Shown one piece after another: positions 1,158 through 58,318 of a stretch of 62,998 bases of DNA. The stretch is from contig JAGBNH010000073.1 of NCBI GenBank assembly GCA_017634475.1, forward strand, positions 1-62,998, in the 5' to 3' direction. Under the pieces are notes generated by a model, which ran no database searches, had not been told where the DNA came from, and saw nothing but the letters and a program-made list of their open reading frames with translations. This stretch comes from Eubacterium sp. GTDB lineage: Bacteria; Bacillota; Clostridia; Lachnospirales; Lachnospiraceae. Made by a program: the position numbers and the translations under genes. The first letter of the stretch is position 1; every line of letters begins with the position of its first letter.

Positions 1158-2756
1158 TCACTGTGCGGCCAGCTTTGCCGTACACCAGGCGATCTGCAGA
1201 TTAAACCCTCCGGTAAGAGCATCACAATCGATCATTTCTCCCGCTACACGAAGTCCCTGAAGCCTCTTTACCTCCATGGTCCGGGGATCGATCTCCTTCA
1301 CGGACAGGCCGCCTGCGGAAATGATGGCTTCATCGAAGCCCCGCAGTCCCGTTATGGGCAGACGGAAGGCTTTCAGCGTCTCCACCAGCTTTCTCCTCTG
1401 CTCCTGCTTCAGATCATGGACCCGAAGCTCCGGATCCATTTCTGCCAGAGCAAGGACCGGAAGGATCGCTGCTCTGGGAAGGAGTCCCTCCATGGCGTTC
1501 TGCAGCGTCTTATTCTTGGCCTGATCAAAGTCACGAAGGATCCGCTGATCCAGCTGTTCCGGCGTAAGGGCCGGTTTCCAGTCCAGACGAAGCTCCAGTC
1601 TCTCCTTGGATCTGCCGTCTGCGGTGAAGTATTTCTGCAGCATTCCCGACGCGGACAGGATCACCGGTCCGCTGACGCCGAAATGGGTGAACAGCATTTC
1701 TCCGAATTCACGATATACCGGTTTCTTGGGTTTATCCAGCCGGTAAAAGCTCACCTCCACGTTCTTCGGTGCAAGTCCCATCATGGGCTTACAGATGGAC
1801 AGATCGCTTTCCATGGGGACCAGAGACGGCTGGAAGGGACGGATGGACAGCCCCTGCTTCTCCAGGAAGGTCACGCCTTCGCCGGAGGCTCCGGTTCCGG
1901 GATAAGAGATACCGCCGGTGGCAAGGACTACCACGTCTGCGGTAAGCTTTGTTCCGTCGGACAGAAGGACGCCGGTGACTCTTTTTATGCCACAGGATTC
2001 TTCGCTTCGCTCAGAATGACAGACTGGTCCAAGGGATTCTTCGCTTCGCTCAGAATGACAGACGGGGTCGGAGGATTCTTCGCTTCGCTCAGAATGACAG
2101 ACGGGGTCGGAGGATTCTTCGCTTCGCTCAGAATGACAGACATGTCTACGGGATTCTTCGCTCTGCTCAGAATGACAGACGGGGTCTGAGGATTCTTCGC
2201 TTCGCTCAGAATGACAGACTGGTCCAAGGGATTCTTCGCTTCGCTCAGAATGACAGACGAGTTCGGAGGATTCTTCGCTTCGCTCAGAATGACAGACGGG
2301 GTCGGAGGATTCTTCGCATCGCTCAGAATGACAGACGGGTTCGGAATGACAGAGGAGGCCGCGGACATGGGTATTTAAACGGATATCCACGCCTCTTTTT
2401 CGCATCTGCTGTTCCAGGGTCCGGATCACATCAGAGGAATGATCCGATTCCGGAAACACCCGGTTTCCCCGCTCTGTCTTCACCTTAAGCCCCCAGTCCT
2501 GAAAGGACCGGATCACTGCTTCCGGCGGATAGGCAGAGATGGCGCTGTACAGGAATTTCGGGTTGGACATGACATTTTTCAGAAATGTCTCCTCGTCGCA
2601 GGCATTCGTCAGGTTGCAGCGGCCCTTTCCCGTGATAAAGAGCTTCTTGCCGAGCTTGTCGTTCTTCTCCAGCAGGAGGACTTTGTAGTTTTCGGCAGCG
2701 TGGATCGCTGTCATCATTCCGGCGGCGCCACCGCCGACTATGATCATTTTTTTCAT
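1158..2756 (-). CDS. NAD(P)/FAD-dependent oxidoreductase, HI0933/YhiN family, with an in-frame repeat insertion
   Basis: The 532-residue product starts with an FAD Rossmann motif (IIVGGGAAGMMTA) and has the family signature GKGRCNLTN near residue 47 and VVLATGGISYPGTGASG after the insertion. Family members are about 400-420 residues. The excess of about 120 residues is a tandem array of a 13-residue unit beginning CHSERSEES (residues about 133-254) that interrupts the region between RLNTHVRGLL and RVTGVLLSDG. Both flanks keep family sequence and the frame is preserved, so the protein may still be made. The ATG is preceded by AAGGA. The physiological substrate of the family is uncertain. Confidence 0.85.
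   Translation of the reverse strand: MKKMIIVGGGAAGMMTAIHAAENYKVLLLEKNDKLGKKLFITGKGRCNLTNACDEETFLKNVMSNPKFLYSAISAYPPEAVIRSFQDWGLKVKTERGNRVFPESDHSSDVIRTLEQQMRKRGVDIRLNTHVRGLLCHSEPVCHSERCEESSDPVCHSERSEESSELVCHSERSEESLGPVCHSERSEESSDPVCHSEQSEESRRHVCHSERSEESSDPVCHSERSEESSDPVCHSERSEESLGPVCHSERSEESCGIKRVTGVLLSDGTKLTADVVVLATGGISYPGTGASGEGVTFLEKQGLSIRPFQPSLVPMESDLSICKPMMGLAPKNVEVSFYRLDKPKKPVYREFGEMLFTHFGVSGPVILSASGMLQKYFTADGRSKERLELRLDWKPALTPEQLDQRILRDFDQAKNKTLQNAMEGLLPRAAILPVLALAEMDPELRVHDLKQEQRRKLVETLKAFRLPITGLRGFDEAIISAGGLSVKEIDPRTMEVKRLQGLRVAGEMIDCDALTGGFNLQIAWCTAKLAAQ
1995..2345. repeat. Nine-unit 39-bp tandem array of the hairpin repeat inside a CDS
   Basis: Nine units start at 1995, 2034, 2073, 2112, 2151, 2190, 2229, 2268 and 2307. 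Each has a 30-bp core starting GGATTCTTCG and ending AGAATGACAGAC, plus a 9-bp variable part. A partial unit follows to about 2358. Thirty-nine is a multiple of three and the core has no stop codon in the gene frame, so reading continues through. The core is the same hairpin found singly in many gaps of this window. Confidence 0.95.
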
Positions 2757-2786
2757 GGGGTTCCTTCTTTCAAGATCCTTCTTTTA

Positions 2787-3178
2787 AGATCCTTCGCTTC
2801 GCTCAGGATGACACGGGGTATGTGGCTCAGGATGACATGGGGTTTTGGCCGAAGGTCCTTCGCCTTCGGCTCAGGATGACACGGGGTTTTGACCGAAGAT
2901 CCTTCGCCTTCGGCTCAGGATGACAGAAGGACTATAGGTTAAGGATGACACCTGTCTGTCATTCTGAGGGAGCATAGCGACCGAAGAATCCTTTCGTTTA
3001 TTCGCTGTATTCTGGCCTTCGGTTCACGGGATCCTTCGCCTTCGGCTCAGGATGACATGGTGGCCTTCGGTTCACGGGATCCTTCGCCTTCGGCTCAGGA
3101 TGACATGGTGGCCTTCGGCTCAGGATGACACGGGGTTTTGACCGAAGATCCTTCGCCTTCGGCTCAGGATGACATCAG
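2787..3178. repeat. Cluster of short palindromic hairpin repeats filling an intergenic gap
   Basis: The gap between the flavoprotein start (2756) and the esterase end (3202) holds about eight full or partial copies, mostly with the loop variant CGCCTTCGGC. One copy near 2952-2992 is in the opposite orientation. Parts are repeated again at larger scale: a stretch reading GGCCTTCGGTTCACGG followed by a hairpin copy occurs twice. No promoter or gene is evident among them. Confidence 0.85.
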
Positions 3179-3201
3179 GGCTTCAGCTCAATACAATCGT
3201 T

Positions 3202-4161
3202 TTAATTGAGGCCTGTCTGTTTCCGGAAGTATTCCAGCATCTTTCGGTTGGTTACCTTGCTCTCGTACCAGCTCCAGAATTCCACATTGAAGACATGCAT
3301 GAGATGTGCTCCGTCTTCCTTCTTCCAGATCATCTTCTCATAGTTCACCTGTTTTTCATCCATGCATTTCAGGATCTTCAATGTCTGGTAATGCAGGGAT
3401 TCATTCTCGGAACCGATGAAGAAGATGGGCGGGAGTTTCTTCACATCCGGAACAAATCGGATAAACTCCGAGAAGCTGAGAGCTTTGCTCCATGGTGCGT
3501 CCTCTCCCATTTCGCCAAGCATCAGCTCGCGATATGCTTCGGAAAGCTTCACCTTCTCCTCTTCCGATCCATAGGGGAGCAGAAACAGGGAATCCATTTC
3601 CGCACAGGGACAGCTGATGCCCAGGGTTCCGATCTTAAAGGAAACCGGTGTCACGCCGTAGATCCTCTGAAGCTCTTCGCTTTCCTGGATACATGCCACA
3701 AGAAGGGACAAATGTGCACCGGCGGAGTCTCCGGTGATCAGTACATGCTCCAGATCAAAGCCTCGTCTGGGTCCACAGTTTTCCAGCCAGTGCAGCGCGG
3801 TATAGATATCCTGTACGATCCCCTGCATATCCGTCGTGGGGATCAGGCGATACCCCATGCCCATAACGGCGTATCCCATGGAGGCGATCTCCGCCATATA
3901 CTGCTCGGAATCCTCCACATGACCAAAAAGCCATCCACCACCATGGATATTGATCACCGTGGGAAGCTTTTCTCCTTCCTTCATGCTCTTTGGATAATAA
4001 TTGCAGAGCATATGGTCGATATTATAGTCCTGGATATAGGGGATCTTCCGCTCCGCCCTTATGTCCTCCGGAAGGGGAATGCTGTATTCCACCTTGTGGT
4101 TCATTTCCACTGCCTTCCAGAATGCAACCACCTTGTTTTGCTCATCTGTTCTTATGATCAT
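3202..4161 (-). CDS. Alpha/beta hydrolase (esterase/lipase, hormone-sensitive-lipase type)
   Basis: The 319-residue enzyme carries the oxyanion-hole motif HGGGW at residues 73-77 and the nucleophile motif GDSAG with Ser at about 146. A C-terminal His lies in GAHLMH. These are marks of HSL-like (family IV) carboxylesterases acting on short acyl esters. No signal peptide is seen, so it is probably cytoplasmic. The open frame reaches 4209, but ATG at 4161 is preferred because an AAGGGAG ribosome binding site lies just upstream. It stands alone, with a hairpin terminator on its 5' side and repeats on its 3' side. The substrate cannot be told. Confidence 0.85.
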   Translation of the reverse strand: MIIRTDEQNKVVAFWKAVEMNHKVEYSIPLPEDIRAERKIPYIQDYNIDHMLCNYYPKSMKEGEKLPTVINIHGGGWLFGHVEDSEQYMAEIASMGYAVMGMGYRLIPTTDMQGIVQDIYTALHWLENCGPRRGFDLEHVLITGDSAGAHLSLLVACIQESEELQRIYGVTPVSFKIGTLGISCPCAEMDSLFLLPYGSEEEKVKLSEAYRELMLGEMGEDAPWSKALSFSEFIRFVPDVKKLPPIFFIGSENESLHYQTLKILKCMDEKQVNYEKMIWKKEDGAHLMHVFNVEFWSWYESKVTNRKMLEYFRKQTGLN

Positions 4162-4219
4162 CAGTAAATCTCCCTTAAAATAACCTTTGTTTACATCCAT
4201 TTCCACCACAGCAACGAAG

Positions 4220-4252
4220 AAACGCCGCAGCCGTTATGGGCTGCGGCGTGGT
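4220..4252 (-). terminator. Hairpin terminator after the decarboxylase operon
   Basis: A near-perfect GC-rich dyad (CGCCGCAGCC and GGGCTGCGGCG around a 5-base loop) lies just past the oxaloacetate carboxyltransferase stop. In the minus direction it is followed by TTTCTT. A 14-bp palindrome, ATTCCATATGGAAT, sits beside it at 4271-4284. Confidence 0.7.
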
Positions 4253-4283
4253 TTATCCGTCGTGTGATCCATTCCATATGGAA

Positions 4284-5690
4284 TTAGACAGGATAAGTCA
4301 TATTATCCTTATCCGCCTTGGAAATGTCAATCTTCTTCTGCTGTGCATCTCTGTACTGGAAGAACTCGGTAGCAACCTGCGGGAACAATGCATAGGAAAG
4401 CACGTCCTCATCCTGCTGCTTATACTGAGCCACAGCCTTTTCCATATCCGGAAGCTGTGGAGCGATCAGGTCTGCAGGACGGCAGGTAATGGGCTCCGTA
4501 TCTCCGATGGCCTTCTTCTGTACCTCAGGATTAAAGGGCTTTACGGTCTGGCCATATTTACCGGAAAGAAGATCCTTGGACTGCTGGGTAAACATCTTAT
4601 AACGCTCCCCGAGAACTACGTTCAGAACTGCCTGCGTACCCACAATCTGGGAGGACGGAGTAACAAGCGGCGGCTCACCGAAGTCCTTACGTACACGCGG
4701 AACCTCTTCAAGCACATCCTTAAGCTTATCTTCCTTACCCTGCTCCTTCAGCTGGGATACCAGGTTGGAAAGCATTCCGCCGGGTACCTGATACAGAAGG
4801 GTCTTGATGTTTACGCCCATAACCTTGGTGCTCATGAGGCCGCTGGAAATGTACTTCTCTCTGAGGGGTGCGAAGTAATCCGCGATCTCAGCCAGAAGAT
4901 GCTGATCCAGACCGGTATCGTAAGGTGTACCCTTAAAGGTCTCAACCAGAACCTCGGTTGCGGGCTGAGATGTACCCATGGCCATGGGAGACATAGCGCA
5001 GTCGATGACATCACATCCGGCTTCAACCGCCTTCAGATAGGTCATTGCTGCCACACCGGAGGTATAGTGCGTATGGAGCTGAATGGGAAGCTTTGTACCT
5101 TCCTTCAGTGCCTTTACCAGCTTCTCTGCTTCATACGGAACGAGCAGTCCGGCCATATCCTTGATGCAGATAGAATCTGCACCCATTTCCTCGATCTCAC
5201 GGGCGATATTTCTCCAGTAATCCAGAGTATATGCATCACCCAGTGTATAGGAAAGAGCAATCTGTGCATGACCTTTTTCCTTATTTGCTGCCTTCACAGC
5301 CGTCTCCAGGTTACGAAGATCGTTGAGGCAGTCAAAGATACGGATGATATCGATACCGTTTGCGATAGATTTCTGTACGAAGTATTCTACCACGTCATCG
5401 GAATAATGGTTATAACCCAGGATGTTCTGTCCGCGGAACAGCATCTGCAGCTTGGTATTCTTGAAACCGTCACGAAGCTTGCGAAGTCTTACCCACGGAT
5501 CCTCTTTCAGGAAACGGAGGCATGCATCAAAGGTTGCACCACCCCAGCACTCTACGGAATGATAGCCCACCTTATCCATCTTATCAATGATGGGAAGCAT
5601 GTCTTCCGTCGTCATTCTTGTTGCGATCAGAGACTGATGTGCGTCACGGAGCACGGTCTCTGTAATACCTACTTTTCTTATTTCAGACAT
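4284..5690 (-). CDS. oadA: Oxaloacetate/pyruvate carboxyltransferase subunit (OadA/PycB/5S type)
   Basis: The 468-residue protein belongs to the HMGL-like TIM-barrel carboxyltransferases, which move CO2 between carboxybiotin and pyruvate. Visible marks are TVLRDAHQS near the N-terminus, a lysine in ICIKDMAGLL (the position that is carbamylated in the family) and the metal-binding LHTHYTSG. The C-terminus ends without a biotinyl domain; biotin is on the separate carrier at 6989-7366. ATG at 5690 follows AGGAGAA; the longer open frame to 5726 lacks a comparable site. It is the last gene of the operon and is separated from oadB by a hairpin repeat element. Confidence 0.9.
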   Translation of the reverse strand: MSEIRKVGITETVLRDAHQSLIATRMTTEDMLPIIDKMDKVGYHSVECWGGATFDACLRFLKEDPWVRLRKLRDGFKNTKLQMLFRGQNILGYNHYSDDVVEYFVQKSIANGIDIIRIFDCLNDLRNLETAVKAANKEKGHAQIALSYTLGDAYTLDYWRNIAREIEEMGADSICIKDMAGLLVPYEAEKLVKALKEGTKLPIQLHTHYTSGVAAMTYLKAVEAGCDVIDCAMSPMAMGTSQPATEVLVETFKGTPYDTGLDQHLLAEIADYFAPLREKYISSGLMSTKVMGVNIKTLLYQVPGGMLSNLVSQLKEQGKEDKLKDVLEEVPRVRKDFGEPPLVTPSSQIVGTQAVLNVVLGERYKMFTQQSKDLLSGKYGQTVKPFNPEVQKKAIGDTEPITCRPADLIAPQLPDMEKAVAQYKQQDEDVLSYALFPQVATEFFQYRDAQQKKIDISKADKDNMTYPV

Positions 5691-5727
5691 TTTCTTCTCC
5701 TCAAAATTATACTGTTTGTCAACCATG

Positions 5728-5821
5728 GGATCCTTCGTCGCTGTGTTTCGCGCTGCCGCTTGGTCAATCTCGGCGCACGAACGTGCGTGCCACCGGCACG
5801 CGTGCGCCCCTCAGGATGACA
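5728..5821. repeat. Long-loop copy of the hairpin repeat inside the decarboxylase operon
   Basis: The ends ATCCTTCG and CTCAGGATGACA match the short repeat, but about 70 bp of palindromic DNA replaces the short loop. That DNA includes GCGTGCC/GGCACGC and CGCAC/GTGCG dyads. The inner sequence is closely similar to the element at 12109-12190, although the outer stem there is ATTCT/AGAAT. Confidence 0.85.
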
Positions 5822-5827
5822 CAGACA

Positions 5828-6949
5828 CTAGCTTATGTTGAAAATGGCAAGGAACGTACCTGCAGCTACCGCGGTACCGATAACGCCGGCCACATTGGGC
5901 CCCATGGCGTTCATCAGAAGGAAGTTGGTGGGATCGTATTCAGCACCGACCTTCTGGGATACACGGGCCGCCATGGGAACGGCGGACACTCCGGCAGAAC
6001 CGATAAGCGGATTAACCTTGCCGTGGGTGACGGCACACATGATCTTTCCGAATATGACACCCATGGCCGTACCCAGGATAAATGCTGCAAGTCCGAGACC
6101 AACGATCTTCAGTGTACTTACCTGCAGGAATGCTTCCGCACTTGTAGTTGCTCCTACGGAAGTACCCAGCAGGATAACAACGATGTACATCAGGGCATTG
6201 GAAGATGTCTCTGTCAGCTGCTTAACTACGCCTGATTCACGGAAAAGGTTTCCGAGCATCAGCATACCGATCAGCGGAGCTGTAGTCGGCAGGATCAAAC
6301 ATACAACAAGAGTTACAACAATGGGGAAGAGGATCTTCTCCAGCTTTGTTACCTGACGAAGCTGCGGCATCTTGACCTTCCGCTCTTTCTCTGTCGTCAG
6401 AAGCTTCATTACCGGCGGCTGAATGACAGGCACAAGGGACATGTACGAATATGCCGCCACAGCGATGGGGCCGAGAAGTGTTCCGCCCATACCCAGCTTA
6501 CCTGCAAGGAAGATGGAGGTCGGTCCGTCCGCACCACCGATGATGGAAATTGCCGCTGCTTCCTTTCCTGTGAAACCGAAAGCAATAGCAAGGAAATAAG
6601 CACCGTAAATACCAAACTGTGCCGCCGCACCTAAGATAAAGCTCGGCGGGTAGGCGATCAGCGGACCGAAGTCGGTCATGGCACCGACGCCCATGAAGAT
6701 CAGGGACGGAAGAATACTCCACTCATCCAGCTTATAGAAGTAGTGAAGAAGTCCGCCTTCCTGAATGATACTCGGGAACATGTTCACCAGGAACATACCA
6801 AATGAAATCGGAACCAGCAGCAGCGGCTCAAAACCCTTGGCAATGGCAAGATACATGAAAATGAACGCGATGAGGATCATTACATAGTTCTTCCAGTCCA
6901 GAGTTGCAAAACCGGTCTGTTCTGCCAGATTCTTTAATATATCCAGCAT
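5828..6949 (-). CDS. oadB: Sodium-translocating decarboxylase beta subunit
   Basis: The 373-residue, highly hydrophobic protein has about nine to eleven membrane segments. It carries the family signature GGADGPTSIFLAGKL, whose Asp lies in the Na+ channel, and NAMGPNVAGVIGTA near the C-terminus. In OadB/MmdB/GcdB it decarboxylates carboxybiotin in the membrane and couples this to Na+ export. It lies between the biotin carrier gene and oadA in one operon. It ends 'FLAIFNIS' at the usual family length. Confidence 0.95.
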   Translation of the reverse strand: MLDILKNLAEQTGFATLDWKNYVMILIAFIFMYLAIAKGFEPLLLVPISFGMFLVNMFPSIIQEGGLLHYFYKLDEWSILPSLIFMGVGAMTDFGPLIAYPPSFILGAAAQFGIYGAYFLAIAFGFTGKEAAAISIIGGADGPTSIFLAGKLGMGGTLLGPIAVAAYSYMSLVPVIQPPVMKLLTTEKERKVKMPQLRQVTKLEKILFPIVVTLVVCLILPTTAPLIGMLMLGNLFRESGVVKQLTETSSNALMYIVVILLGTSVGATTSAEAFLQVSTLKIVGLGLAAFILGTAMGVIFGKIMCAVTHGKVNPLIGSAGVSAVPMAARVSQKVGAEYDPTNFLLMNAMGPNVAGVIGTAVAAGTFLAIFNIS

Positions 6950-6988
6950 TGTTACTCCTCCTTAAATGTTTGCGTCAGCACTGCTATC

Positions 6989-7366
6989 CTAGTTCAATGT
7001 AGCCAGAGTATCTCCGGCTTCCACGGAATCGCCTACGCCAACATTAACAGAAGCAACTGTGCCATCTTCCGGAGCAACGATCTCGTTCTCCATCTTCATG
7101 GCCTCAAGGATCAACAGTACTTCACCCTTCTTTACGCTCTTGCCTACCTCAGTCTTAACGCCAAGGATCTTACCGGGCATGGGGGAAGAAACGGTAACGC
7201 TTCCAGCTGAAGCTGCTGCCTTCGGAGCTGCTGCCGGAGCCGGAGCAGGTGCTGCCGGTTTAACAACCGGAGCAGGCGCTGCTGCCGGAGCTGCCGCTCC
7301 TGCTGCACCATCTTCTACGGTTACATCATAGGTATTTCCATTTACGGTGATTCTATAGTTCTTCAT
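6989..7366 (-). CDS. Biotin carboxyl carrier subunit (decarboxylase gamma/1.3S type)
   Basis: The 125-residue protein has a short N-terminal strand (YRITVNGNTYDVTVED), a flexible Ala-Pro linker of about 35 residues, and a biotinyl domain with the attachment motif EAMKMENEI. Biotin would be joined to the Lys of AMKM. The carrier shuttles carboxyl groups between the two carboxyltransferases of this operon and the OadB membrane subunit. An AGGAGGAAA ribosome binding site precedes the ATG. Confidence 0.95.
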   Translation of the reverse strand: MKNYRITVNGNTYDVTVEDGAAGAAAPAAAPAPVVKPAAPAPAPAAAPKAAASAGSVTVSSPMPGKILGVKTEVGKSVKKGEVLLILEAMKMENEIVAPEDGTVASVNVGVGDSVEAGDTLATLN

Positions 7367-7466
7367 GATTTTCCTCCTGGAATGATTCTCTTTTTTCTAA
7401 ATTGAATATGATAATTGATTATTTGCTCTGATCATCTGTATATGATCTTATCGTGGCCAAACCGGG

Positions 7467-8453
7467 TCATCTTACCCGACGGATGGAACGCACAACCAGT
7501 CCGTCGTTACTTGCGGTATAAGCCGGAGGATGCGCTACCCCGGTATTCCCCGCGCTTTCGGAAAGATAAGCATGCAGAGCGGCAGTGATCACTGCGATCA
7601 GCTCACCATCCTCAACCTCCTTGCCAACCTCGGGAACGGCAATCGCTGCCTGAGGTGTGCTCTCCTTCTTTGTTTCCTGAACAGCTGCCTTCGGAGCTTC
7701 AGGAGCCTTGGGAAGTACCGGTTTCTTCTCTCTTCCGAGAAGCCGCGGTACAAACTTCAGCAAACTGATGATGAAGGAAATGAAGATCAGGACAAGGAAT
7801 ACGATGCCCATACCAACACCCATGTTCTTCGCACCGTTTGCCAGAAGTTCCCCTGTGGAATAGATCGCCGTGACCTCACACTCGTCAGGAGTGTAGGGAG
7901 ATATCTGTGCATTTGCATATAGGTACTCATCCACGAACTTGGAAAGACTTTCGGTGGAGAAACCGTAATCTCCCAGTTTTTCCTTTACATAGGCATCCAC
8001 ATCCGTATAACCGGCCAGCGTGGCGTTATAGGTGAGCTCGTCTGTAATGGATTCCTTCTGGATCCCGAACAGCTTGTTTTCCGTATAGGATACCTTGACC
8101 TGTACATCACGATTTTCAAATTTGCAGACGATAGTACAGAGAATATTGTTACGATTTCCATCTTCGAATTTTACTTTATCCTCAGATGTGTCAAATCCCA
8201 GGAACTTACCAACCTTATCTGTATTCTGCGCCTGACGGAAGCCGTTAACCGCTCCCTTCTCGTAATCCTGACCCTGCTCCAGCAGATAATCGCCCTGCAG
8301 CTCTGTGACACCATTCAAGTTCGTAACAATGGACTTGGTCATTTCGATCATCATGTCCTTGTTAAACTCGTAGTTATGGGCCTCTTCATCGCAGCCGGTA
8401 AAAATGAACATCAGCAGGAGGGTAATCAGCGGTATGATCTTTTTCTTTAACAT
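7467..8453 (-). CDS. OadG-like subunit with a lipoprotein N-terminal extension
   Basis: The 328-residue product begins with a lipoprotein signal (hydrophobic stretch, then FTGC, with Cys at about residue 20). About 170 residues of soluble domain follow, resembling DUF3887-type lipoproteins. A single membrane segment (about residues 212-235) and a Pro/Ala/Lys-rich linker come next. The tail, ELIAVITAALHAYL followed by LVVRSIRRVR, is typical of the small OadG/MmdD subunits. OadG proteins are usually about 80-130 residues, so this is an OadG fused to an extracellular lipid-anchored domain. Its place in the operon supports a role in assembling the decarboxylase complex. The outer domain's job is unknown. 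Confidence 0.75.
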   Translation of the reverse strand: MLKKKIIPLITLLLMFIFTGCDEEAHNYEFNKDMMIEMTKSIVTNLNGVTELQGDYLLEQGQDYEKGAVNGFRQAQNTDKVGKFLGFDTSEDKVKFEDGNRNNILCTIVCKFENRDVQVKVSYTENKLFGIQKESITDELTYNATLAGYTDVDAYVKEKLGDYGFSTESLSKFVDEYLYANAQISPYTPDECEVTAIYSTGELLANGAKNMGVGMGIVFLVLIFISFIISLLKFVPRLLGREKKPVLPKAPEAPKAAVQETKKESTPQAAIAVPEVGKEVEDGELIAVITAALHAYLSESAGNTGVAHPPAYTASNDGLVVRSIRRVR

Positions 8454-8475
8454 TTCCGGTTACCTCTCATTATTA

Positions 8476-9980: not shown

Positions 9981-9997
9981 GGAAAATCTCATAAAGA

Positions 9998-12020: not shown

Positions 12021-12191
12021 AAGATTCTTCGCTTTGCTCAGAATGACACGATATCATGTCATCCTGAGGAGCGCAGCGACGAAGGATCCCTTCGACTTTG
12101 CCAGGGGATTCTTCGCTTTGCGCTGCCGCTTGGTCGCACTCGGCGCACAAACATGCGTGCCACCGGCACGCGTGCGCCCGCTCAGAATGAC
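12021..12191. repeat. Head-to-head hairpin pair followed by a long-loop copy
   Basis: Two short copies face each other at 12022-12092: an ATTCT/AGAAT copy with loop AAA, then an inverted ATCCT/AGGAT copy with loop GCA. A long-loop copy at about 12109-12190 follows, whose inner palindromes match those of the element at 5728-5821. Together they fill most of the gap between rimO and folD. Confidence 0.85.
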
Positions 12192-12198
12192 ATAATTA

Positions 12199-23218: not shown

Positions 23219-23333
23219 TGGGATTCTTCCTTCCCTGCCCGTACTCGCTGCCGCGAGCACGGCACCGGAAGGCTATGCACTGTCCTCAGAATGACAGAAT
23301 GTCTGTCATCCTGAGCCGCAGGCGAAGGATCCC
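23219..23333. repeat. Head-to-head hairpin repeat pair, one with a long loop
   Basis: The left copy (ATTCT/AGAAT ends) has a loop of about 60 bases containing palindromic DNA and GGAAGGCTATGCA, which it shares with the copy at 24770-24863. The right inverted copy has ATCCT/AGGAT ends and a GCC/GGC inner stem. The conserved TGACAGA and TCTGTCA heads face each other. Confidence 0.8.
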
Positions 23334-24769: not shown

Positions 24770-24863
24770 AGGATTCTTCGCTTCCTGCTAACATCTTCCG
24801 GAGACTCGCTCGCATTCGCGAGCATAGCTCCGGAAGGCTATGCAGTATGCTCAGAATGACACC
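24770..24863. repeat. Long-loop hairpin repeat copy
   Basis: The ends ATTCTTCGC and GCTCAGAATGACA are those of the short repeat. The loop holds a nested palindrome (CTTCCGGAG/CTCCGGAAG around GCTCGC/GCGAGC). It fills most of the gap between aroE-aroK and the rpsO terminator. Confidence 0.85.
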
Positions 24864-28162: not shown

Positions 28163-28228
28163 GATCCTTCGCTTCGCTCAGGATGACAGACATATGTCAT
28201 TCTGAGGCCGCAAGGCCGAAGAATCCCC
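28163..28228. repeat. Head-to-head hairpin repeat pair
   Basis: The left copy has ATCCT/AGGAT ends with GCGAAGC on the minus strand. The right inverted copy has ATTCT/AGAAT ends and a GGCC/GGCC stem with loop GCAA on the plus strand. The facing TGACA and TGTCA heads are separated by GACATA. Confidence 0.85.
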
Positions 28229-36819: not shown

Positions 36820-36922
36820 AGGATTCTTCGTCGTGCTCCGCACTCCTCAGAATGACAGACATCTTGTTGCACTCCTCAGAATGACAGACATCTTGCCAAA
36901 GCTCCTCAGAATGACAGATATT
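36820..36922. repeat. Hairpin repeat with two extra partial copies
   Basis: A full copy (ATTCT/AGAAT ends, GTGC/GCAC inner stem) is followed by two partial units each ending in CTCCTCAGAATGACAGA. The last abuts the bipA stop. The partial units have only the right half of the palindrome. Confidence 0.8.
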
Positions 36923-45477: not shown

Positions 45478-45647
45478 GGGATTCTTCGCTTCGCTCAGAA
45501 TGACAGACTCTCTGTCATCCTGAACCGAACGAAGTGAGGTGAAGGATCCCATGACTTCTCACGTAAAGGCCAATGGGATTCTTCGCTTCGCTCAGAATGA
45601 CAGACTGTCTGTCATCCTGAACCGAACGAAGTGAGGTGAAGGATCCC
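45478..45647. repeat. 97-bp tandem duplication of a head-to-head hairpin pair inside the trp operon
   Basis: Two 73-bp pairs lie at 45478-45550 and 45575-45647, nearly identical and offset by 97 bases. Each joins an ATTCT/AGAAT copy to an inverted, longer ATCCT/AGGAT copy with ACC/GGT and AC/GT inner stems. The linker between pairs (about 24 bases, including AAAGGCCAAT) also precedes the first pair. Confidence 0.92.
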
Positions 45648-45653
45648 ATGACT

Positions 45654-50539: not shown

Positions 50540-50575
50540 GAACTAACTCCTGATAAGTAAATGCACGTCTATGTA

Positions 50576-51268: not shown

Positions 51269-51346
51269 AATTAAATATCCTCCCTGTAATTATCACGTTT
51301 GCTAATAAAACCTTCCGTCCGGCCGTTCAAAACAACCGACTAGACC

Positions 51347-51375
51347 ATTATACATAGATTCCTATGTTTTTACAA
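51347..51375 (-). promoter_or_regulatory. pspA promoter with an inverted repeat
   Basis: TTGTAA (51370-51375) and a perfect TATAAT (51347-51352) are 17 bases apart. ACATAG and CTATGT (51352-51367) form a dyad within the spacer, where a repressor could block RNA polymerase. Confidence 0.7.
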
Positions 51376-51409
51376 CTTATTTTCTGATTAAAATCTCGTT
51401 AATCCCGGG

Positions 51410-52720
51410 TTAATGCCGAAGGATCTCATGGATCACCGGCGGTACCTCCGGCTTCTCCTCCGATATGGTGTAGGCATTAAGCAGTCTCTCCCGGGCTGCG
51501 GGCATAACCTCCCAATGATTGGAGTAGAGGACCGCTATGGGCTTCTCGGGACTCACCCGTTCCCCCAGTCCGGCCAGGATCCGGATCCCGGCGGAATAGT
51601 CTATGGGATCTCCCTTTTTGTTCCTGCCCGCTCCCAGCATGACGGAGGTAAGTCCTACCTCAGCCGTATTACAGGAATAAAGATACCCTTCCTGTTCCGG
51701 GTAGACCGGCTGTTCATAGGCACAGGTCCTTACGGGATGATCAAGAAAACGGGTATCCCCGCCGCAGGCTTCCACGAACCGGTAGAAACGGTCCTTTGCG
51801 GAGCCGTCGGTCAGGACCTGCTCCACTGCCGCTGCCGCTTCCTCCCGGGTAGCTCTTGCCTGATCCGAGAGCTGGAGCATTTCCACTGCCAGATCGATGA
51901 TCAGCCGGTGAAGCCGCTCCTCTCCTCCTCCGGACAGGACCTCCAGTGCCTCTTCCACCTCGATGATGTTCCCCACGGCGGTTCCCAGAGGCTGGTTCAT
52001 ATCCGAGATCACCGCAACGGTCTCTCTTCCTGCCAGCCTTCCGATGCGGATCATCTGTGCTGCCAGGGCTCTTGCTTTTTCCGGATCCTGCATAAATGCA
52101 CCGCTGCCGCATTTCACATCCAGCACGATCCTGTCAGCACCCGCTGCCAGTTTTTTACTCATGATACTGGAAGCAATCAGCGGGATACAGTCCACGGTAG
52201 CCGTAACATCCCGGAGAGAATACAGCAGCTTATCCGCGGGAGCAAGCTCCGCAGTCTGCGCCACATCCACAAATCCCACATCTTCCAGCACCTGCAGGAA
52301 CTGATCCTGCGTAAGATCCGAGCGAAAACCCGGAATGCTTTCCAGCTTGTCCACGGTTCCTCCGGTGAAGCCCAGACCCCGGCCGCTCATTTTCGCTGTT
52401 GGGACCTTCAAGGCCGCCAGCACCGGTCCCAGGATCATGGATGTCTTATCTCCCACACCACCGGTAGAATGCTTATCCAGCTTGATCCCCTTCACCATTT
52501 TCAGATTCAGCTGTTCGCCGCTCTGGGCCATGGCCAGGGTAAGCCAGGTGGTCTCCCGGTCTGTCATCCCCTTAAACCAGATGGCCATAAGGAGCGCGGC
52601 CATCTGGTAATCCGGCAGCTGCCCGGCCGTGTAATCCGTGATCATGGAACGGATCTCGTCCTCGGTGAGCTCGCCGCCGTGTTTCTTCTTCTCGATCAGA
52701 TCATACATCCTGTATTTCAT
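51410..52720 (-). CDS. pdp: Pyrimidine-nucleoside (thymidine) phosphorylase
   Basis: The 436-residue enzyme phosphorolyses uridine or thymidine to base and (deoxy)ribose 1-phosphate. The family signature reads SGRGLGFTGGTVDKLESIPG, with KHSTGGVGDKTS near the N-terminus. With deoB two genes upstream it channels nucleoside sugars to (deoxy)ribose 5-phosphate. The gap from the EF-G-like gene is 24 bases, so cotranscription is likely. Confidence 0.95.
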   Translation of the reverse strand: MKYRMYDLIEKKKHGGELTEDEIRSMITDYTAGQLPDYQMAALLMAIWFKGMTDRETTWLTLAMAQSGEQLNLKMVKGIKLDKHSTGGVGDKTSMILGPVLAALKVPTAKMSGRGLGFTGGTVDKLESIPGFRSDLTQDQFLQVLEDVGFVDVAQTAELAPADKLLYSLRDVTATVDCIPLIASSIMSKKLAAGADRIVLDVKCGSGAFMQDPEKARALAAQMIRIGRLAGRETVAVISDMNQPLGTAVGNIIEVEEALEVLSGGGEERLHRLIIDLAVEMLQLSDQARATREEAAAAVEQVLTDGSAKDRFYRFVEACGGDTRFLDHPVRTCAYEQPVYPEQEGYLYSCNTAEVGLTSVMLGAGRNKKGDPIDYSAGIRILAGLGERVSPEKPIAVLYSNHWEVMPAARERLLNAYTISEEKPEVPPVIHEILRH

Positions 52721-52744
52721 ACGGTTCTCCGATCTGTCAAAACC

Positions 52745-54829
52745 CTACTTACTCTCCTCAGCTGCCTGATTCTTTGCGATCTCGGCCTTTGCCACCTCAT
52801 CCGGAGCCTGCTCGTAGCGAACGAATTCGTAAGCGAAAAGCCCGCTGCCCCGGGACATGGAGTAAAGACGGGTATCATACTCATAGAGCTCCATATACGG
52901 GATCTCAGCCTGGATCTCCGTGATGCCGTTTCCTACGGGATTCATACCCAGCACACGGGCACGGCGCTTGTTCAGATCGCCCATAACGTCGCCGGTGAAT
53001 TCATCGGATACAGTTACGGTAAGCGCTGCGATGGGCTCAAGAAGAACCGGTTTTGCATCCATGAAGCCCTTCTTGAAGGCCTGCTCTGTAGCCACCTTGA
53101 AGGCAAGCTCGGAGGAATCCACCGGATGGTAGCTTCCGTCATACAGCGTAACCTTGACTCCGGTAACCGGATAGCCGGCCAGCGGGCCTGCCTTAACGGA
53201 CTCGATCACACCCTTCTCCACTGCCGGATAGTAGTTCTTCGGAACTGCACCGCCCACTACGGTCTGTGCAAATTCATACTGTTTATCCATGGTGCCCAGG
53301 GGCTCCATGATGATCTTAACATGACCGTACTGGCCATGACCGCCTGACTGCTTCTTGTACTTGTACTCGGTATCGGACTTGCCGTTGATGGTCTCCTTGA
53401 AGGCGATCTTCGGACGAAGGAGATCGATACCCACCTTGTACTTCTCCTGCAGAACGCTCTGTACCACCTCCAGCTGCTGTGCACTGATACCGTAGATCAG
53501 GGTCTGTCCGTTCTCACCGTCATTTACGGTCTTGATGGTCAGATCCTCCTTCATCATCTTGCCCAGAGCCTGGGAGATCTTATCCTCATCTCCCTTGTTC
53601 TTTGCCTTGTAACGACGATATACGTAAGGCTTGGAAATGGAGGTACGGATATAGGTTACCGGAACCTTTCTTGTGGAAAGAGTATCCGTGGTCTGGCTGT
53701 CCGTAAGCTTGGCCAGAGCACCGATATCCCCGGCATGAAGCTCTTTAACCTCTTCAACCTTATTTCCGCAGATGGTATAAAGCTTGCCAACCTTCTCATC
53801 CACATCCCGGTGATAGTTGAAGAGCATATCATCCGGCTTCAGTACGCCGGAATTCACCTTGATCAGGGAATAGGTACCGATATAGGGATCGGCAATGGTC
53901 TTGAAGATATATGCGGACTTCGGCTTAGCGAAGTTGTAATCCGCCTCAAATACCTCATTATTCTCGGTATTGATTCCTGCACATTTGCAATGATCCGGGC
54001 TGGGGAAGTACTTGATGATATCCGCCATCAGGGTATACATACCCCGGGCCAGGGTGTTGGAGCCCATGAGCACCGGAACTACGGAGCCGTCCATAACGCC
54101 TACACGGAGGGCCTGACGGATCTCATCCTCGGAGAATTCATCTCCGCCGAAATAGCGTTCCATATACTCTTCACTGGTCTCAGCCACAGACTCCAGCAGA
54201 GCCTCACGGCAGATGGAGAGGTTCTCCCGGGAATAATCGGGTACATCGAACTTATCAACGGTACCCTTGTCGTTCCAGCGCTTTGCCTTCTGCTGGATCA
54301 CGTTGACATAGCCCACAAACTGCTCATTTTCACGGATCGGAAGGTGGAACGGAGCGATGTGCTTGCCGTACATTTCCTGAAGGTTCTGAACGATCTCACG
54401 GAAGCTGGCCTTGTCGTCGTCCATGTCCGTTACGAAGAACATCCGCGGAAGCTTACGCTTCTCGCACAGATCCCATGCGCGCTTTGTTCCTGCTTCCACA
54501 CCTGCTTTACCGGAGATCACAATGACTGCCGCATCTGCTGCAGCTACTGCTTCTTCCGCCTCACCCACATAATCATGGAAACCCGGTGCGTCCAGAAGAT
54601 TTACCTTTACGCCATCCCACACCACCGGAACAACGGTCGTCTTGATGGAGATGCCGCGCTTGATCTCTTCCTTGTCGTAATCGCTGATGGTATTGCCGTT
54701 AGCTACCGTACCCATACGGTTGGTCATGCCTGCCAGATAGGCAATGGCTTCCACCAGTGACGTCTTCCCGCATCCCCCATGACCGAGAAGCACTACGTTT
54801 CTGATCTTGTCTGTGGTAAATACATTCAT
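52745..54829 (-). CDS. EF-G-like translational GTPase with altered nucleotide motifs
   Basis: The 694-residue protein has the five-domain layout of elongation factor G and resembles the EF-G-like (EF-G2/TetM-related) group of Firmicutes. G1 is GHGGCGKT (residues 16-23) and G3 is DAPG (80-83, instead of DTPG). At the G4 position TDMD (134-137) replaces the guanine-specific NKxD. It is therefore probably not the housekeeping EF-G. It may be a ribosome factor with changed nucleotide use. It lies between deoB and pdp, with ATG after GGGGAGGA. Confidence 0.85.
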   Translation of the reverse strand: MNVFTTDKIRNVVLLGHGGCGKTSLVEAIAYLAGMTNRMGTVANGNTISDYDKEEIKRGISIKTTVVPVVWDGVKVNLLDAPGFHDYVGEAEEAVAAADAAVIVISGKAGVEAGTKRAWDLCEKRKLPRMFFVTDMDDDKASFREIVQNLQEMYGKHIAPFHLPIRENEQFVGYVNVIQQKAKRWNDKGTVDKFDVPDYSRENLSICREALLESVAETSEEYMERYFGGDEFSEDEIRQALRVGVMDGSVVPVLMGSNTLARGMYTLMADIIKYFPSPDHCKCAGINTENNEVFEADYNFAKPKSAYIFKTIADPYIGTYSLIKVNSGVLKPDDMLFNYHRDVDEKVGKLYTICGNKVEEVKELHAGDIGALAKLTDSQTTDTLSTRKVPVTYIRTSISKPYVYRRYKAKNKGDEDKISQALGKMMKEDLTIKTVNDGENGQTLIYGISAQQLEVVQSVLQEKYKVGIDLLRPKIAFKETINGKSDTEYKYKKQSGGHGQYGHVKIIMEPLGTMDKQYEFAQTVVGGAVPKNYYPAVEKGVIESVKAGPLAGYPVTGVKVTLYDGSYHPVDSSELAFKVATEQAFKKGFMDAKPVLLEPIAALTVTVSDEFTGDVMGDLNKRRARVLGMNPVGNGITEIQAEIPYMELYEYDTRLYSMSRGSGLFAYEFVRYEQAPDEVAKAEIAKNQAAEESK

Positions 54830-54876
54830 TTTGTTTCCTCCCCATAAAAATTATTGATTTGCTATTGTAACCCTTG

Positions 54877-56091
54877 TCATTCATCCATCTGCGGCTTCAG
54901 CTCCATGGCTGTTCCGATGGGCAGATGCCGCACCCCGAGCAGCTTTCCCACAGTTTCGCCGATATCCGCAAATGTATCTCTCACGCCCAGATCCCCCGGG
55001 GCAAGCTTCCGGCCCCAGACCAGGATCGGAACATATTCTCTGGTATGATCCGTTCCGGTAAATGTAGGATCACAGCCGTGATCAGCCGTGATAAAAAGCA
55101 GATCCTCCTCTCCCATAGCATTCATGATCTCGGGAAGCCTCCGGTCAAAAGCCTCCAGCCCTTCCCTGTAGCCCGAAACATTTCTCCTGTGCCCCCACAC
55201 GGAATCGAATTCCACCAGGTTCGTGAAGATCAGCTCCTTCCCTTTCGGCGGGGCGTTCTTCAGAAGTGCAACGGTCTGATCCACGCCGTCCATGTTGCTG
55301 ACCGTCCGGATGGCTCTGGCGATCCCCTTTCCGCAGAACAGATCATTGATCTTCCCCACGGAGATCACCGGGATCCCTGCTTCCGAAAGATAATACAGCA
55401 GGTTCTCATCCCCCGGATCGATGGCATAATCATGCCGGTTCACGGTCCGCTCAAACAGTGCTTCTCCCGGCTCCTTTGCCCGGACAAACGGTCTTGCGAT
55501 CACCCTGGCCATGAGGTTCTCCCCCATAAGGAGCTCTCTTGCCACCTGACAGACCTGATAGAGCCGATCCAGTCCGAAGGTCTCCTCCGATGCCGCGATC
55601 TGAAAGACCGAATCCTGGGAGGTATAGACAATGGGACATCCTGTCCGTTCATGCTCCTCCCCCAGCCGCTGGATGATGGCCGTTCCGGAATCCACGCAGT
55701 TTCCCAGAACGCCGGGAACCTTTGCTTCCCGGACGAAGGCCTCTATGATGGAGTCCGGAAATCCGTCAGGAAAGGTCCTGAAGGGAACAGAGGTCTCGAT
55801 GCCGATCATTTCCCAGTGACCGGTGACCGAATCCTTCCCCCTGGAGCATTCCGCTGCTTTTCCGTACATTCCCACCGGGTGCTCCACCGCTCCGATGGAC
55901 GAAGCCACGCCATCGATACAGCCCAGACCCAGCTTCCTCAGATTCGGGATCCGGATATCCGGAAATGTACCGCAGATATGTCCGAGGGTATCCGCCCCCG
56001 TATCCAGGTAGTCGCCTGCATCCGGCAGAGCACCGATCCCCACGCTGTCCAACACGATCCAAATAACACGGCCTCCCGACTCTAAATGCAA
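54877..56091 (-). CDS. deoB: Phosphopentomutase
   Basis: The 404-residue alkaline-phosphatase-superfamily enzyme converts (deoxy)ribose 1-phosphate to the 5-phosphate. Motifs are RVIWIVLDSVGIGALPDA, TADHGCDPTFTGTDHTREYVPIL and GHWEMIG. The start is taken as TTG at 56091, seven bases after a strong GGAGGTGAG. The ATG at 56106 overlaps that site and would leave no ribosome binding site. It heads a nucleoside-catabolism group with pdp. Confidence 0.93.
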   Translation of the reverse strand: MHLESGGRVIWIVLDSVGIGALPDAGDYLDTGADTLGHICGTFPDIRIPNLRKLGLGCIDGVASSIGAVEHPVGMYGKAAECSRGKDSVTGHWEMIGIETSVPFRTFPDGFPDSIIEAFVREAKVPGVLGNCVDSGTAIIQRLGEEHERTGCPIVYTSQDSVFQIAASEETFGLDRLYQVCQVARELLMGENLMARVIARPFVRAKEPGEALFERTVNRHDYAIDPGDENLLYYLSEAGIPVISVGKINDLFCGKGIARAIRTVSNMDGVDQTVALLKNAPPKGKELIFTNLVEFDSVWGHRRNVSGYREGLEAFDRRLPEIMNAMGEEDLLFITADHGCDPTFTGTDHTREYVPILVWGRKLAPGDLGVRDTFADIGETVGKLLGVRHLPIGTAMELKPQMDE

Positions 56092-56121
56092 GCTGCTCAC
56101 CTCCATTCACACACTGCAATA

Positions 56122-56150
56122 ATTTTACCAAAAAATCTTCATTCTATCAA
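56122..56150 (-). promoter_or_regulatory. deoB promoter
   Basis: TTGATA (56145-56150) and TAAAAT (56122-56127) are 17 bases apart, about 30 bases before the TTG start. Confidence 0.7.
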
Positions 56151-56159
56151 ACTTTTTTG

Positions 56160-58265
56160 TTAAATTTCCCGATTTAATGCCTCCGTTCCCGGAAGGACAA
56201 AACGCCCGTCCCGGATGAGCTCCTTCTCCCGTCCGTCCGGATATACCGCAGCGATCCTTCCGATCTCCCGATAGGGGATGGTAATGTCCGTATGACAGTT
56301 GAAATACGCCTTCTCCGGTGCCGTATCCCGCAGCAGGGAGAAATCATTCTCCCGGGAAATGATCTCCTTTCCGTCCGGATTAAACACTGCCGTATCTTCG
56401 GAATGACTGTAGCATGTGTCTCCCAGGGCAAAATGCGGTCCGGTCTTCTCCACGATCAGGATCGGAAGCTTCCCCAGGATGTCGTATTTCTTCGCCATGA
56501 AATAGGCCGGCATGTTGGTGCCGATGGCGAATTCCCCAATGGGAAGGGTCTCATGATTGAACAGGATATTCTCCCGGATATAGGCCCTTCCGGCTTCCTC
56601 ATCCGCATAGTTGCCGCAGCTGTAGGAGGAAACCATACCGTCCTTGAAAACGATCTCCAGATCCTTGAAATAATACCCGTTCAGATAGACGCCGCTCACA
56701 TGCAGGGTCCCTTCCGTACCGGAAAGAACCGGGGAAGTGAAGACCTCTCCCAGGGGGATATTCACATCCGCCACACAGTTTTCATACTGGGTCTGTCCGG
56801 CAGGATCGGCGAGTTTACGCATTTTCACCCGCATTCTTGTCCGATTCTCCCCGCAGCCCTCCACCAGGATATGATCCGCGGGATCCATGGCGTCGATGAG
56901 CTTCTGCTGCAGCGGGATATACTCTTCATTCTTCAGTGTATTGATCCGTACCGTATCCCGGAAGATCTCCCGGAAATCCGGTCCGATCTCGGGTGACGGC
57001 CAGGCAATGATGGAGAAGCTGTAGCTTTCTCCCGGAAGAAATTCCTGCAGGAGCATGGCTGACCTGGCGTAAAGCGTGGTGGAAAGCTCCTGCTGCTGTT
57101 CGGACAGGGTGATGACCCCTTCCTTCTTGGCCGGCATGAAGGTTTCCTCTCCAAAGGACTCAACCACTGCCGGACCGGCATATCCGGTGAAAACATCCGC
57201 ATTTTCCTGCAGCAGCTCCTCATAAGCCTTCCTCAGGGCGGAGAGCTTCCTGTCCACATACTGCGGATCCAGGAAAAGCGCCTCATCCATCCGGTGATCA
57301 TAGATAAACTGACGGGATGCGGGTGTGCCCGTGATCCCCTTTCTCACTGTTCCCCGGAGGTTTACCCTGCTTCCGGGAACCCGGGTAAGTATGGGTTTAA
57401 GGCCGATCTCTTCGAAGCGCCGGATCACCCTTCGGATCATCCGTTCCTGCCCGAGGATATAGCGAATCCCCACAGTGGTCTTCCCCGCGAAGGGCACCCG
57501 CATGGTGTCAAAGCCTCTGCGATAGCCGTCCACAAAGGTAGCGGCCATGGCATCGATCTCCTCTTCAGAAAGCGTGTTCAGGAAGGCTGCCATTTCCAGC
57601 TCCGTATCCGAGATATACTCTCCCAGCTTGTAGAGATATGCAGGATCCGACAGGTCCTCCTGCATCACCACCCGGTACAGGGTATTCTCCAGCGGAAGAA
57701 AGGAATTTCTGGCGCCGATCCGGACGATCTCCTCCAGATAATCTGTCACATGGAAGCGCACTGCTTCCTCCAGGCTCTGCACTGCAGGAGCATCCTCATC
57801 CCCAAAGCGTCCGTAGATCTCCAGAAAGAGCTCCGTCAGGGTAACGATCATAAAGAGCTGCCCGTCGAAGATATATCCCGGCAGACTGTAGATCTCCGCC
57901 AGAAGGAAGGAAAGCACCTCTCCATAGGTCCCCAGCTTCACCGCCATGTCAGGATTGGCGTAGCTTTGGGCATAAGCTCCTTCCATCAGCGGGGCGTAGA
58001 GTATCCGGTTGATCTCTTTCCATTCTTCTGTGGAAATGTCCTTCCAATCCTCTACCCCGGGGCCTTCGGGAGAAAAGAGCGAGTCTCCCAGTCTGTCTAT
58101 AACAAAAAAGCAGGAACCAAGGTAATCTGCCGCGCCTGCAAAACAGGCCCGCAGATTTCCCCTGATCTCTGCCGGTATTTTCGTCGAAAGAAACGTATCC
58201 AGTTCCGATTTGATTTCCGCTACCCTGTCCCGAGACAGGGCAAGCCGTTCACGTAAGTCACACAT
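56160..58265 (-). CDS. M29-type metallo-aminopeptidase with a large N-terminal domain
   Basis: The protein (701 residues from ATG at 58265) has in its C-terminal part the M29 (AmpS/PepS-like) aminopeptidase core. It reads ENCVADVNIPLGEVFTSPV, LPIGEFAIGTN, GPHFALGDTCYSHSED and YFNCHTDI, whose Glu, His and Asp residues match the two-metal site. Typical M29 enzymes are about 370-415 residues. The first 300 or so residues are an extra alpha-helical domain I do not recognise. It has no signal peptide, so it is cytoplasmic. ATG at 58265 follows AAAGGAA; the frame opens 12 codons earlier. Confidence 0.8.
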   Translation of the reverse strand: MCDLRERLALSRDRVAEIKSELDTFLSTKIPAEIRGNLRACFAGAADYLGSCFFVIDRLGDSLFSPEGPGVEDWKDISTEEWKEINRILYAPLMEGAYAQSYANPDMAVKLGTYGEVLSFLLAEIYSLPGYIFDGQLFMIVTLTELFLEIYGRFGDEDAPAVQSLEEAVRFHVTDYLEEIVRIGARNSFLPLENTLYRVVMQEDLSDPAYLYKLGEYISDTELEMAAFLNTLSEEEIDAMAATFVDGYRRGFDTMRVPFAGKTTVGIRYILGQERMIRRVIRRFEEIGLKPILTRVPGSRVNLRGTVRKGITGTPASRQFIYDHRMDEALFLDPQYVDRKLSALRKAYEELLQENADVFTGYAGPAVVESFGEETFMPAKKEGVITLSEQQQELSTTLYARSAMLLQEFLPGESYSFSIIAWPSPEIGPDFREIFRDTVRINTLKNEEYIPLQQKLIDAMDPADHILVEGCGENRTRMRVKMRKLADPAGQTQYENCVADVNIPLGEVFTSPVLSGTEGTLHVSGVYLNGYYFKDLEIVFKDGMVSSYSCGNYADEEAGRAYIRENILFNHETLPIGEFAIGTNMPAYFMAKKYDILGKLPILIVEKTGPHFALGDTCYSHSEDTAVFNPDGKEIISRENDFSLLRDTAPEKAYFNCHTDITIPYREIGRIAAVYPDGREKELIRDGRFVLPGTEALNREI

Positions 58266-58289
58266 ATGGTATTCCTTTTCTTGTTTTAT

Positions 58290-58318
58290 AAGATCCTTCA
58301 CTTCGTTCAGGATGACAT
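58290..58318. repeat. Single hairpin repeat copy with an A-T/G-C swapped stem
   Basis: Ends are ATCCT/AGGAT and the inner stem is AC/GT, where most copies have GC/GC. The complementary change keeps the pairing. It abuts the end of the small membrane protein gene. Confidence 0.8.

Follow-up and report, generated by a model that had tools for sequence, protein, structure and literature searches.

A TGTC-tagged modular hairpin repeat in a Eubacterium genome and its probable partnership with small GIY-YIG nucleases in many phyla

We describe a dispersed hairpin repeat in a 62,998 nucleotide (nt) stretch of DNA from Eubacterium sp. (GenBank assembly GCA_017634475.1, contig JAGBNH010000073.1; the whole of this stretch is referred to here as the window), in which a TGTC tag is followed by an outer stem and by further short stems set off by GA opposite GA. 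The pairing and the GA/GA are conserved and the tag strand is fixed, and in many phyla the genes of one subfamily of small GIY-YIG proteins, here called 'Ssn-like', adjoin or lie between such repeats. We regard some partnership between the repeats and the Ssn-like nucleases as highly likely, and consider it probable that the repeats are the hairpin partner of these enzymes, in all likelihood an ssDNA (single-stranded DNA) substrate. That the enzyme would cleave ssDNA at the hairpin is fairly probable; that it might itself drive the spread of copies is possible, if somewhat less likely than not.

The association was examined starting from the repeats and, separately, starting from the proteins. 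In the repeat-first sample, 49 named repeat-positive genomes gave 142 matches to PF01541, of which 110 were examined, namely 30 loci, 52 other short matches and 28 of the 42 with frames of 500 amino acids (aa) or more, the latter serving as UvrC controls. The short proteins were sorted with two small hidden Markov models (HMMs), and a gene was counted as flanked if a strict hairpin lay within 300 bp. By this rule 38 of 47 Ssn-like genes are flanked, 26 of them on both sides. Of the 47, all but one, which belongs to the window's own genome, come from 27 of the 49 genomes, and a few are broken or truncated. Among YhbQ-type genes 2 of 33 are flanked, none on both sides, and if the ten YhbQ loci from repeat-free genomes are left out the control falls to 1 of 23; other short GIY-YIG genes are never flanked (0/7). 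The control loci aimed at UvrC, which represent the background of repeat-rich genomes, are flanked in 10 of 28 cases and on both sides in 2 of 28, taking the longest frame at each locus, the length of which differs from that of the listed UvrC frame in five of the 28 (L260, L265, L268, L274 and L276), where a different frame may thus have been scored. For flanking on either side the Ssn-like genes differ from the 23 YhbQ-type genes with a Fisher P of 4e-10 and from the UvrC loci with a P of 1.4e-4. Six HMM seeds were chosen after their flanks had been viewed, four of them being strictly flanked, and with the seeds removed the count is 34 of 41. For L238 and L245 the weaker pieces were set aside, as were the duplicates L162, L214, L206 and L072, and the strict flank of at least one counted gene, L242, looks like chance.

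The protein-first sample came from a profile search of 398 Pseudomonadota genomes, all but one (G195) chosen without regard to repeats so as to lessen selection bias. There were 241 genomes with a match, many of these weak and possibly YhbQ-type, and the best 30 loci were examined, which represent the core of the subfamily as defined by the six-seed profile. Repeats flank 23 of these 30 genes on at least one side and 20 on both, compared with 10 of 58 and 1 of 58 for positions shifted by 900 bp, and the flanks include the CGTCATTCCCGCGAAGGCGGGAATCCA type; one of the loci, L396, is the same place as L188 of the first sample, where it was counted as unflanked. Two of the Ssn-like proteins gave no NCBIfam match over the curated cut-off, and the relatives found by sequence in the PDB are the UPF0213 proteins 1zg2 and 1ywl, followed weakly by the UvrC structure 1yd6.

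Judged from the sequences, repeat type goes with enzyme lineage, on a tree that is itself weakly supported. Around the 26 doubly flanked genes the arm type of the repeat (named by its three variable outer positions, as in the YCT of ATYCT) is the same on both sides in 20, differs only as TCT against CCT in two, and differs more in four. On an enzyme tree of 46 proteins from 13 phyla, 38 rows of which were labelled by arm type, the labels require 16 changes (shuffled mean 23.4, minimum 18 in 1000 shuffles), and three structural classes of repeat require 9 (shuffled mean 13.7; as few as 9 in 1 of 1000 shuffles); the figures quoted are for automatic labels, those of L188 and L202 having been set by eye in one version, and the odd automatic labels of L222, L241 and L242 were kept. 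Several repeat types may also adjoin Ssn-like genes of the same assembly. In G153 Ssn-like genes stand beside TTC (L177 and L204), straight TGC/CCC (L207) and YCT (L210) repeats, in G155 beside TGC, straight TCC and TCT repeats, and in G177 beside TGC and TCT repeats; G153 is a Bacteroidales assembly in which the Ssn-like genes number at least four and the repeat types next to them three.

On its tagged strand a complete copy reads TGTC, an outer stem ATYCT/AGRAT, GA opposite GA, one or more short stems and a loop, and where there are several inner stems these are again separated by GA/GA; the complementary strand would have TC opposite TC. Searching exactly for the core anchor TGTCATYCTGA, we found 35 copies in the window, 30 of which have a matching 3' arm. 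The whole draft genome (2.18 Mb, completeness rated 81%) has 284 matches to the strict pattern TGTCATYCTGAN{5,35}GAAGRATC and none to a reversed control pattern. An own-genome sample made up of the window and 20 other stretches (331,921 bases in all) contains 172 anchors, of which 131 belong to complete copies and 41 lack the 3' arm. A preliminary description, made from the window alone, held that Y and R always change together, and they do so in all 131 complete copies (67 T-A and 64 C-G pairs). It also held that the stems are always separated by GA opposite GA. In a test that required only TGTCATYCT and a matching AGRATC, thus imposing the Y/R match and leaving GA free, the dinucleotides beside the outer stem are GA and GA in 123 of 123 elements; GA/GA likewise makes up 18 of the 19 inner 2x2 internal loops that are bounded by pairs, and two single G-A mismatches were seen as well. 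When placed between a pyrimidine and a purine (Py-GA-Pu), tandem GA forms sheared pairs.

The inner stems covary too, as had been proposed. Among 61 distinct elements of 31 nt or less, 196 of 260 inner positions are Watson-Crick pairs; when the 3' halves were reshuffled among elements of the same length class, 2000 runs averaged 161.3 and went no higher than 177, none reaching the observed value, the copies being kin and their descent unmodelled in this permutation, which is thus no phylogenetic test. Asymmetric forms account for a few of the 61, and the long variants follow the grammar only in their outer part, and in this respect the 'always' of the earlier description was slightly too strong. 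Loops of the short forms are mostly of 3-4 nt, and 44 of the 61 distinct loops have G as their first and A as their last base. The description of GAA as a frequent loop holds (18/61); the sequence GCGAAGC is a very stable DNA mini-hairpin. When the tag was left free, it was TGTC in 118 of 119 elements of the own-genome sample, and when the first two stem pairs were left free they were AT/AT in 114 of 118. The pairing and GA/GA data together bear out the earlier view of a conserved folded single strand, REP-like in nature and growing by modules, REP denoting repetitive extragenic palindromic elements.

An exact 26 nt form of the repeat occurs in at least 119 stretches of the genome collection, and among the 80 stretches listed there are 18 labels, namely 16 named phyla, one Patescibacteria record and one unclassified bacterium, which amounts to about 17 phyla; many of the stretches come from metagenome assemblies, in which individual contigs could be wrongly placed. 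When the arms of the element were left free and its middle was held fixed, the three variable outer pairs were complementary in 152 of 157 elements, and in 43 of 46 in loci obtained otherwise than by the scan for the exact form. For arms other than YCT the count is 16 of 19 (permutation mean 3.3, maximum 10). In loci of other phyla a free tag is TGTC or CGTC in 152 of 161 elements, and the first two pairs, when free, are AT/AT in 148 of 161. Paired arms are followed by GA/GA in 114 of 122 cases for TCT, 89 of 90 for CCT, 23 of 23 for TTC and 6 of 8 for GCT, in lower proportion for TCC (12/31) and CCC (6/13), and never for TGC (0/18) or GCC (0/10), while other forms have a plain stem; thus GA/GA marks some types and not the whole superfamily.

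Copy numbers are patchy. A census of the family found the strict form in three of 150 genomes sampled (284, 230 and 14 copies), the remaining 147 being without it, and in the genus copy numbers range from 5 to 378 in 11 of 41 genomes and from 0 to 2 in the other 30, which suggests that copies are gained and lost over short times. In the family member with 14 matches (G024) several of these have a long AT-rich inner hairpin (AAATTCAGC..GCTGAATTT), perhaps another variant.

In the window's own genome the GIY-YIG gene appears to be split at an IS200/IS605 element. At locus L002 a GIY-YIG reading frame of 51 aa begins just before the element, with the tag of a repeat starting 42 nt upstream of the frame, and a profile search located what looks like the remaining half of the gene shortly after the start of a second contig, with a repeat following it; we infer that the two contigs belong together. 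These two pieces (L002 1174-2530 on contig C107, and L306 96-305 on C70) are the only Ssn-like ones found in this genome, and the first is followed by the IS200/IS605 tnpA gene and, by eye, by tnpB-like sequence up to the contig end. With the gene apparently broken in this way, the genome's 284 copies may have become orphans. Of the 40 further genomes in the genus a single one, G209, has an intact homologue, with repeats on both sides. It also has the most copies in the genus (378), followed by the window's own genome with 284 and then by one with 118, and the chance that two gene carriers would be the top two of 41 genomes is 1 in 820. Weak profile matches in G052, G213 and G222 fall in frames of 678 aa or more, and a match in G223 was not accepted as Ssn-like, since by eye it looks YhbQ-type.

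Several observations weigh against a partnership with the nuclease. By the strict rule 9 of 47 genes in the first sample and 7 of 30 in the second are unflanked, and in 22 of the 49 repeat-positive genomes no Ssn-like gene was found, 32 of the 142 PF01541 matches lying outside the examined set. Profile search found no Ssn-like gene in nine congeners whose copies number 5 to 118, one of them being G200, an assembly of one contig rated 100% complete and with 72 copies, and G052, with 230 copies, has only its weak match in a 678 aa frame; since the nine congeners keep the repeats without the gene, the repeats can outlive the gene or have another partner. One of 43 inner branches of the enzyme tree is starred. 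DNA folding energies differ between the strands by just 0.2 to 0.6 kcal/mol and so do not single out the GA strand, and of five GA-strand elements folded as DNA only two beat most of their shuffles, 80, 14, 60, 45 and 4 of 200 shuffles folding at least as well; folding energies alone would therefore miss the element. Lastly, where the genes on either side of a gap run in one direction, 48 of the 71 copies share their strand (counted gap by gap, 17 for and 5 against with 8 tied, P = 0.017), as would also be the case if the element acted as RNA.

An RNA role, in which a transcribed tandem G-A hairpin would stabilize or process mRNA ends and the nuclease link would be secondary, draws on this orientation bias and on RNA folding energies, where the GA strand of three elements has an advantage of 1.5 to 4.3 kcal/mol. 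We think it unlikely, given that the element adjoins one nuclease subfamily across phyla and that its strict form is absent from all but three of the family genomes sampled. In addition the window has no Rfam match, T runs follow a copy in a mere 16 of 132 cases, convergent or divergent gaps hold 28 of the 99 placed intergenic copies, and the strand bias would equally fit exposure on the lagging-strand template. A site-specific or homing-type nuclease of the ordinary kind might instead read a linear repeat in duplex DNA, with the hairpin as a by-product; according to PMC1564403, homing endonucleases are the proteins in which the GIY-YIG domain was first recognized, and copies within one genome agree in the sequence of their tag and outer stem. 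A linear reader needs no covariation, yet inner stems change while their pairing and GA/GA stay, and outer stems covary between lineages as described for the non-YCT arms, so this explanation is disfavoured and seems quite improbable. Covariation could also arise without selection: template-switch correction at palindromes is a known mutational process, and by copying one hairpin arm onto the other it could keep the arms paired. Such copying should convert GA/GA to pairs, and with GA/GA retained at every outer and nearly every inner loop scored, arm-to-arm correction is hardly credible as the cause.

Y1/HUH transposases, whether RAYT or the IS200/IS605 TnpA, have been proposed to mobilize GTAG REPs, and the preliminary description suggested that the present repeats are moved in the same manner. 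In favour of this idea are the likeness of the hairpins to REPs, in that they have a tetranucleotide tag and form inverted pairs, and the occurrence of Y1 genes in the same genome, where such a gene had been suggested as a thing to look for: there are three Y1_Tnp matches, two whose reading frames (143 and 136 aa) are as long as an IS200/IS605 TnpA, and a partial one at a contig end. Across 43 genomes Y1_Tnp is present in 9 of the 13 that have five copies or more and in 18 of the 30 below that number (P = 0.73), no Y1 match occurs in four congeners (G215, G217, G234 and G238) whose copies number 27 to 118, and 29 of 30 Y1 loci inspected lack a strict GA-type repeat in their central part, the sole locus with one being L002, where the insertion sequence lies beside the broken GIY-YIG gene. 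The count from these loci also concerns a possible origin of the repeat as a MITE derived from IS200/IS605, which should match the ends of such an element. As the tag moreover is TGTC and not GTAG, Y1/RAYT enzymes are disfavoured as the partner, and mobilization by them is very improbable.

Returning to the Ssn-like nucleases, GIY-YIG enzymes cut phosphodiester bonds, and the Ssn-like enzyme may recognize the tag together with the folded stem in ssDNA and nick there, for example on the lagging-strand template, an exposure that the strand bias would fit. The spreading unit would then be a pair of copies, tail-to-tail or around the gene, and copies would multiply for as long as the enzyme is there and be left as relics once it is lost. 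Neighbours within 120 bp in the own-genome sample are in tandem in 51 cases, tail-to-tail in 35 and head-to-head in 31. All 35 tail-to-tail pairs in this sample have no gene between them, and 20 have spacers of 17-22 nt; in the named loci tail-to-tail order accounts for 27 of 47 neighbour pairs. The nearest copies around a doubly flanked nuclease gene most commonly have the tag outward on both sides (14/26), the tail-to-tail order again. Spacer lengths peak at 6-7 nt for head-to-head pairs, mostly at 17-22 nt for tail-to-tail pairs and at 13 nt for tandem copies, the last partly from arrays.

Within the window every place at which the repeat had been reported, in gaps and in one array, does hold it, and there are further long copies at 5729-5821 and 24772-24861. 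A cluster at 2788-3174 has six complete copies, five on the minus strand and one on the plus strand (2957-2990), together with truncated or decayed copies at 2826-2837, 2870-2881 and 3119-3130. The minus-strand copy at 12023-12048 (GC-AAA-GC) is head-to-head with a plus-strand copy at 12057-12088, whose modules are G, GA/GA and GC-GCA-GC, and the same arrangement is seen for 28163-28188 (minus, GC-GAA-GC) with 28195-28225 (plus, GGCC-GCAA-GGCC), and for a long variant at 23222-23296 (minus) with 23304-23331 (plus, GCC-GCA-GGC). At 36822-36857 (minus) the modules are G, GA/GA and GTGC-GGA-GCAC, and two truncated copies lie nearby at 36875-36886 and 36905-36916. A GC-GAA-GC copy at 45480-45505 (minus) and a three-stage copy at 45513-45548 (plus; ACC, GA/GA, AC-GAA-GT) recur through a 97 bp duplication as a GC-GAA-GC copy at 45577-45602 (minus) and a three-stage copy at 45610-45645 (plus), and an AC-GAA-GT copy lies at 58292-58317 (minus). 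Among the other long variants, all on the minus strand, the copy at 5729-5821, whose outer stem and GA/GA are the usual ones, has a long hairpin rich in GC inserted in it, that at 12107-12192 shares this insert (5747-5809 against 12117-12179, 90% identity over 63 nt), and that at 24772-24861 consists of the outer stem, GA/GA, GC/GC and an inserted hairpin; a similar GC-rich insert is found in locus L002 from 994. A tandem repeat of a 55 bp unit (TTTACAGACCTTTCCGGTTCTTGCTGAG...) at 58746-58949 has no relation to the hairpin repeat.

The array lies inside a gene. An HI0933-like flavoprotein open reading frame of 532 aa (1158-2756, minus strand) contains, in frame and on the same strand, nine complete head-to-tail copies with a period of 39 bp or 13 codons (1996-2333) and a decayed tenth that reaches 2351, so that 1996-2351 is read as a 13 aa peptide repeat. 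Ten flavoprotein genes of congeners, the nearest about 80% identical, have a linker of variable length at the site of the array and no repeat, which makes the window a case of patchy gain or loss. In-frame coding behaviour is familiar from rickettsial palindromic elements, and the window flavoprotein resembles them as a protein gene in which a palindromic element is read in frame, while differing in that it holds a nine-copy array of a 39 bp unit. These elements are named in PMC3733652. Such repeats thus end up as peptides in predicted proteins.

Among known systems, the nearest enzyme is Ssn of Neisseria: a study of about 2025 reportedly found that this GIY-YIG nuclease cuts ssDNA at the NTS repeat, present in hundreds of copies, and reportedly noted many homologues with other targets. 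The likeness to Ssn and NTS is that a GIY-YIG gene of one subfamily is tied to a genomic repeat (38/47 and 23/30), and the partnership of GIY-YIG gene and repeat may be partly or wholly in print already. Titles and abstracts, with subscription papers poorly covered, yielded no description of the GA/GA modular grammar or of a link between these types of REP and GIY-YIG genes, and the main text of the RepRanger paper (PMC12306157) mentions neither GIY nor TGTC.

Among described repeats the closest are the CGTC REPs, to which that of the window is related, its own tag being TGTC. According to Di Nocera, De Gregorio & Rocco (2013; PMC3733652), CGTC REPs have no associated transposase genes, and in many of them CGTC is changed to TGTC. 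The two are alike in the YGTC tag and AT/AT as first two pairs, and in being short palindromes of high copy number that form dimers and occur in several phyla. They differ in that CGTC REPs have a stem of 8-9 bp and a loop of 4-5 nt, whereas here a 5 bp stem is followed by modules split by GA/GA; in the tail, which is CCA-like there, whereas here TT, CC or CT comes after ATC (65, 37 and 22 of 132, with 8 others); in the order of dimers, head-to-head predominating and tail-to-tail being rare there, in contrast to the common tandem and tail-to-tail orders here; and in the GIY-YIG gene associated here, the paper reporting no transposase association. With the GTAG REPs and REPINs of RAYT (TnpA_REP), as described in PMC3733652 and PMC6006769, the present repeats share the tag and hairpin, the inverted doublets and an enzyme gene bracketed by its own repeats, and differ in having the TGTC tag and a GIY-YIG enzyme instead of an HUH Y1 one.

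A wider conjecture, plausible and held tentatively, is that the whole CGTC/TGTC REP superfamily could be a cross-phylum partnership of a GIY-YIG ssDNA nuclease with a hairpin read by its shape, in which tandem G-A pairs between interchangeable stems would be a modular code co-evolving with the enzyme, a gene between two inverted copies an autonomous unit, and the hundreds of doublets its non-autonomous offspring. If true, this would supply the enzyme reported missing by the 2013 census (PMC3733652). An enzyme partner in the genome makes the origin and function of the repeats directly testable and would provide a natural library of ssDNA shapes with their cognate nucleases, and it would set the CGTC/TGTC REPs apart from those driven by RAYT.

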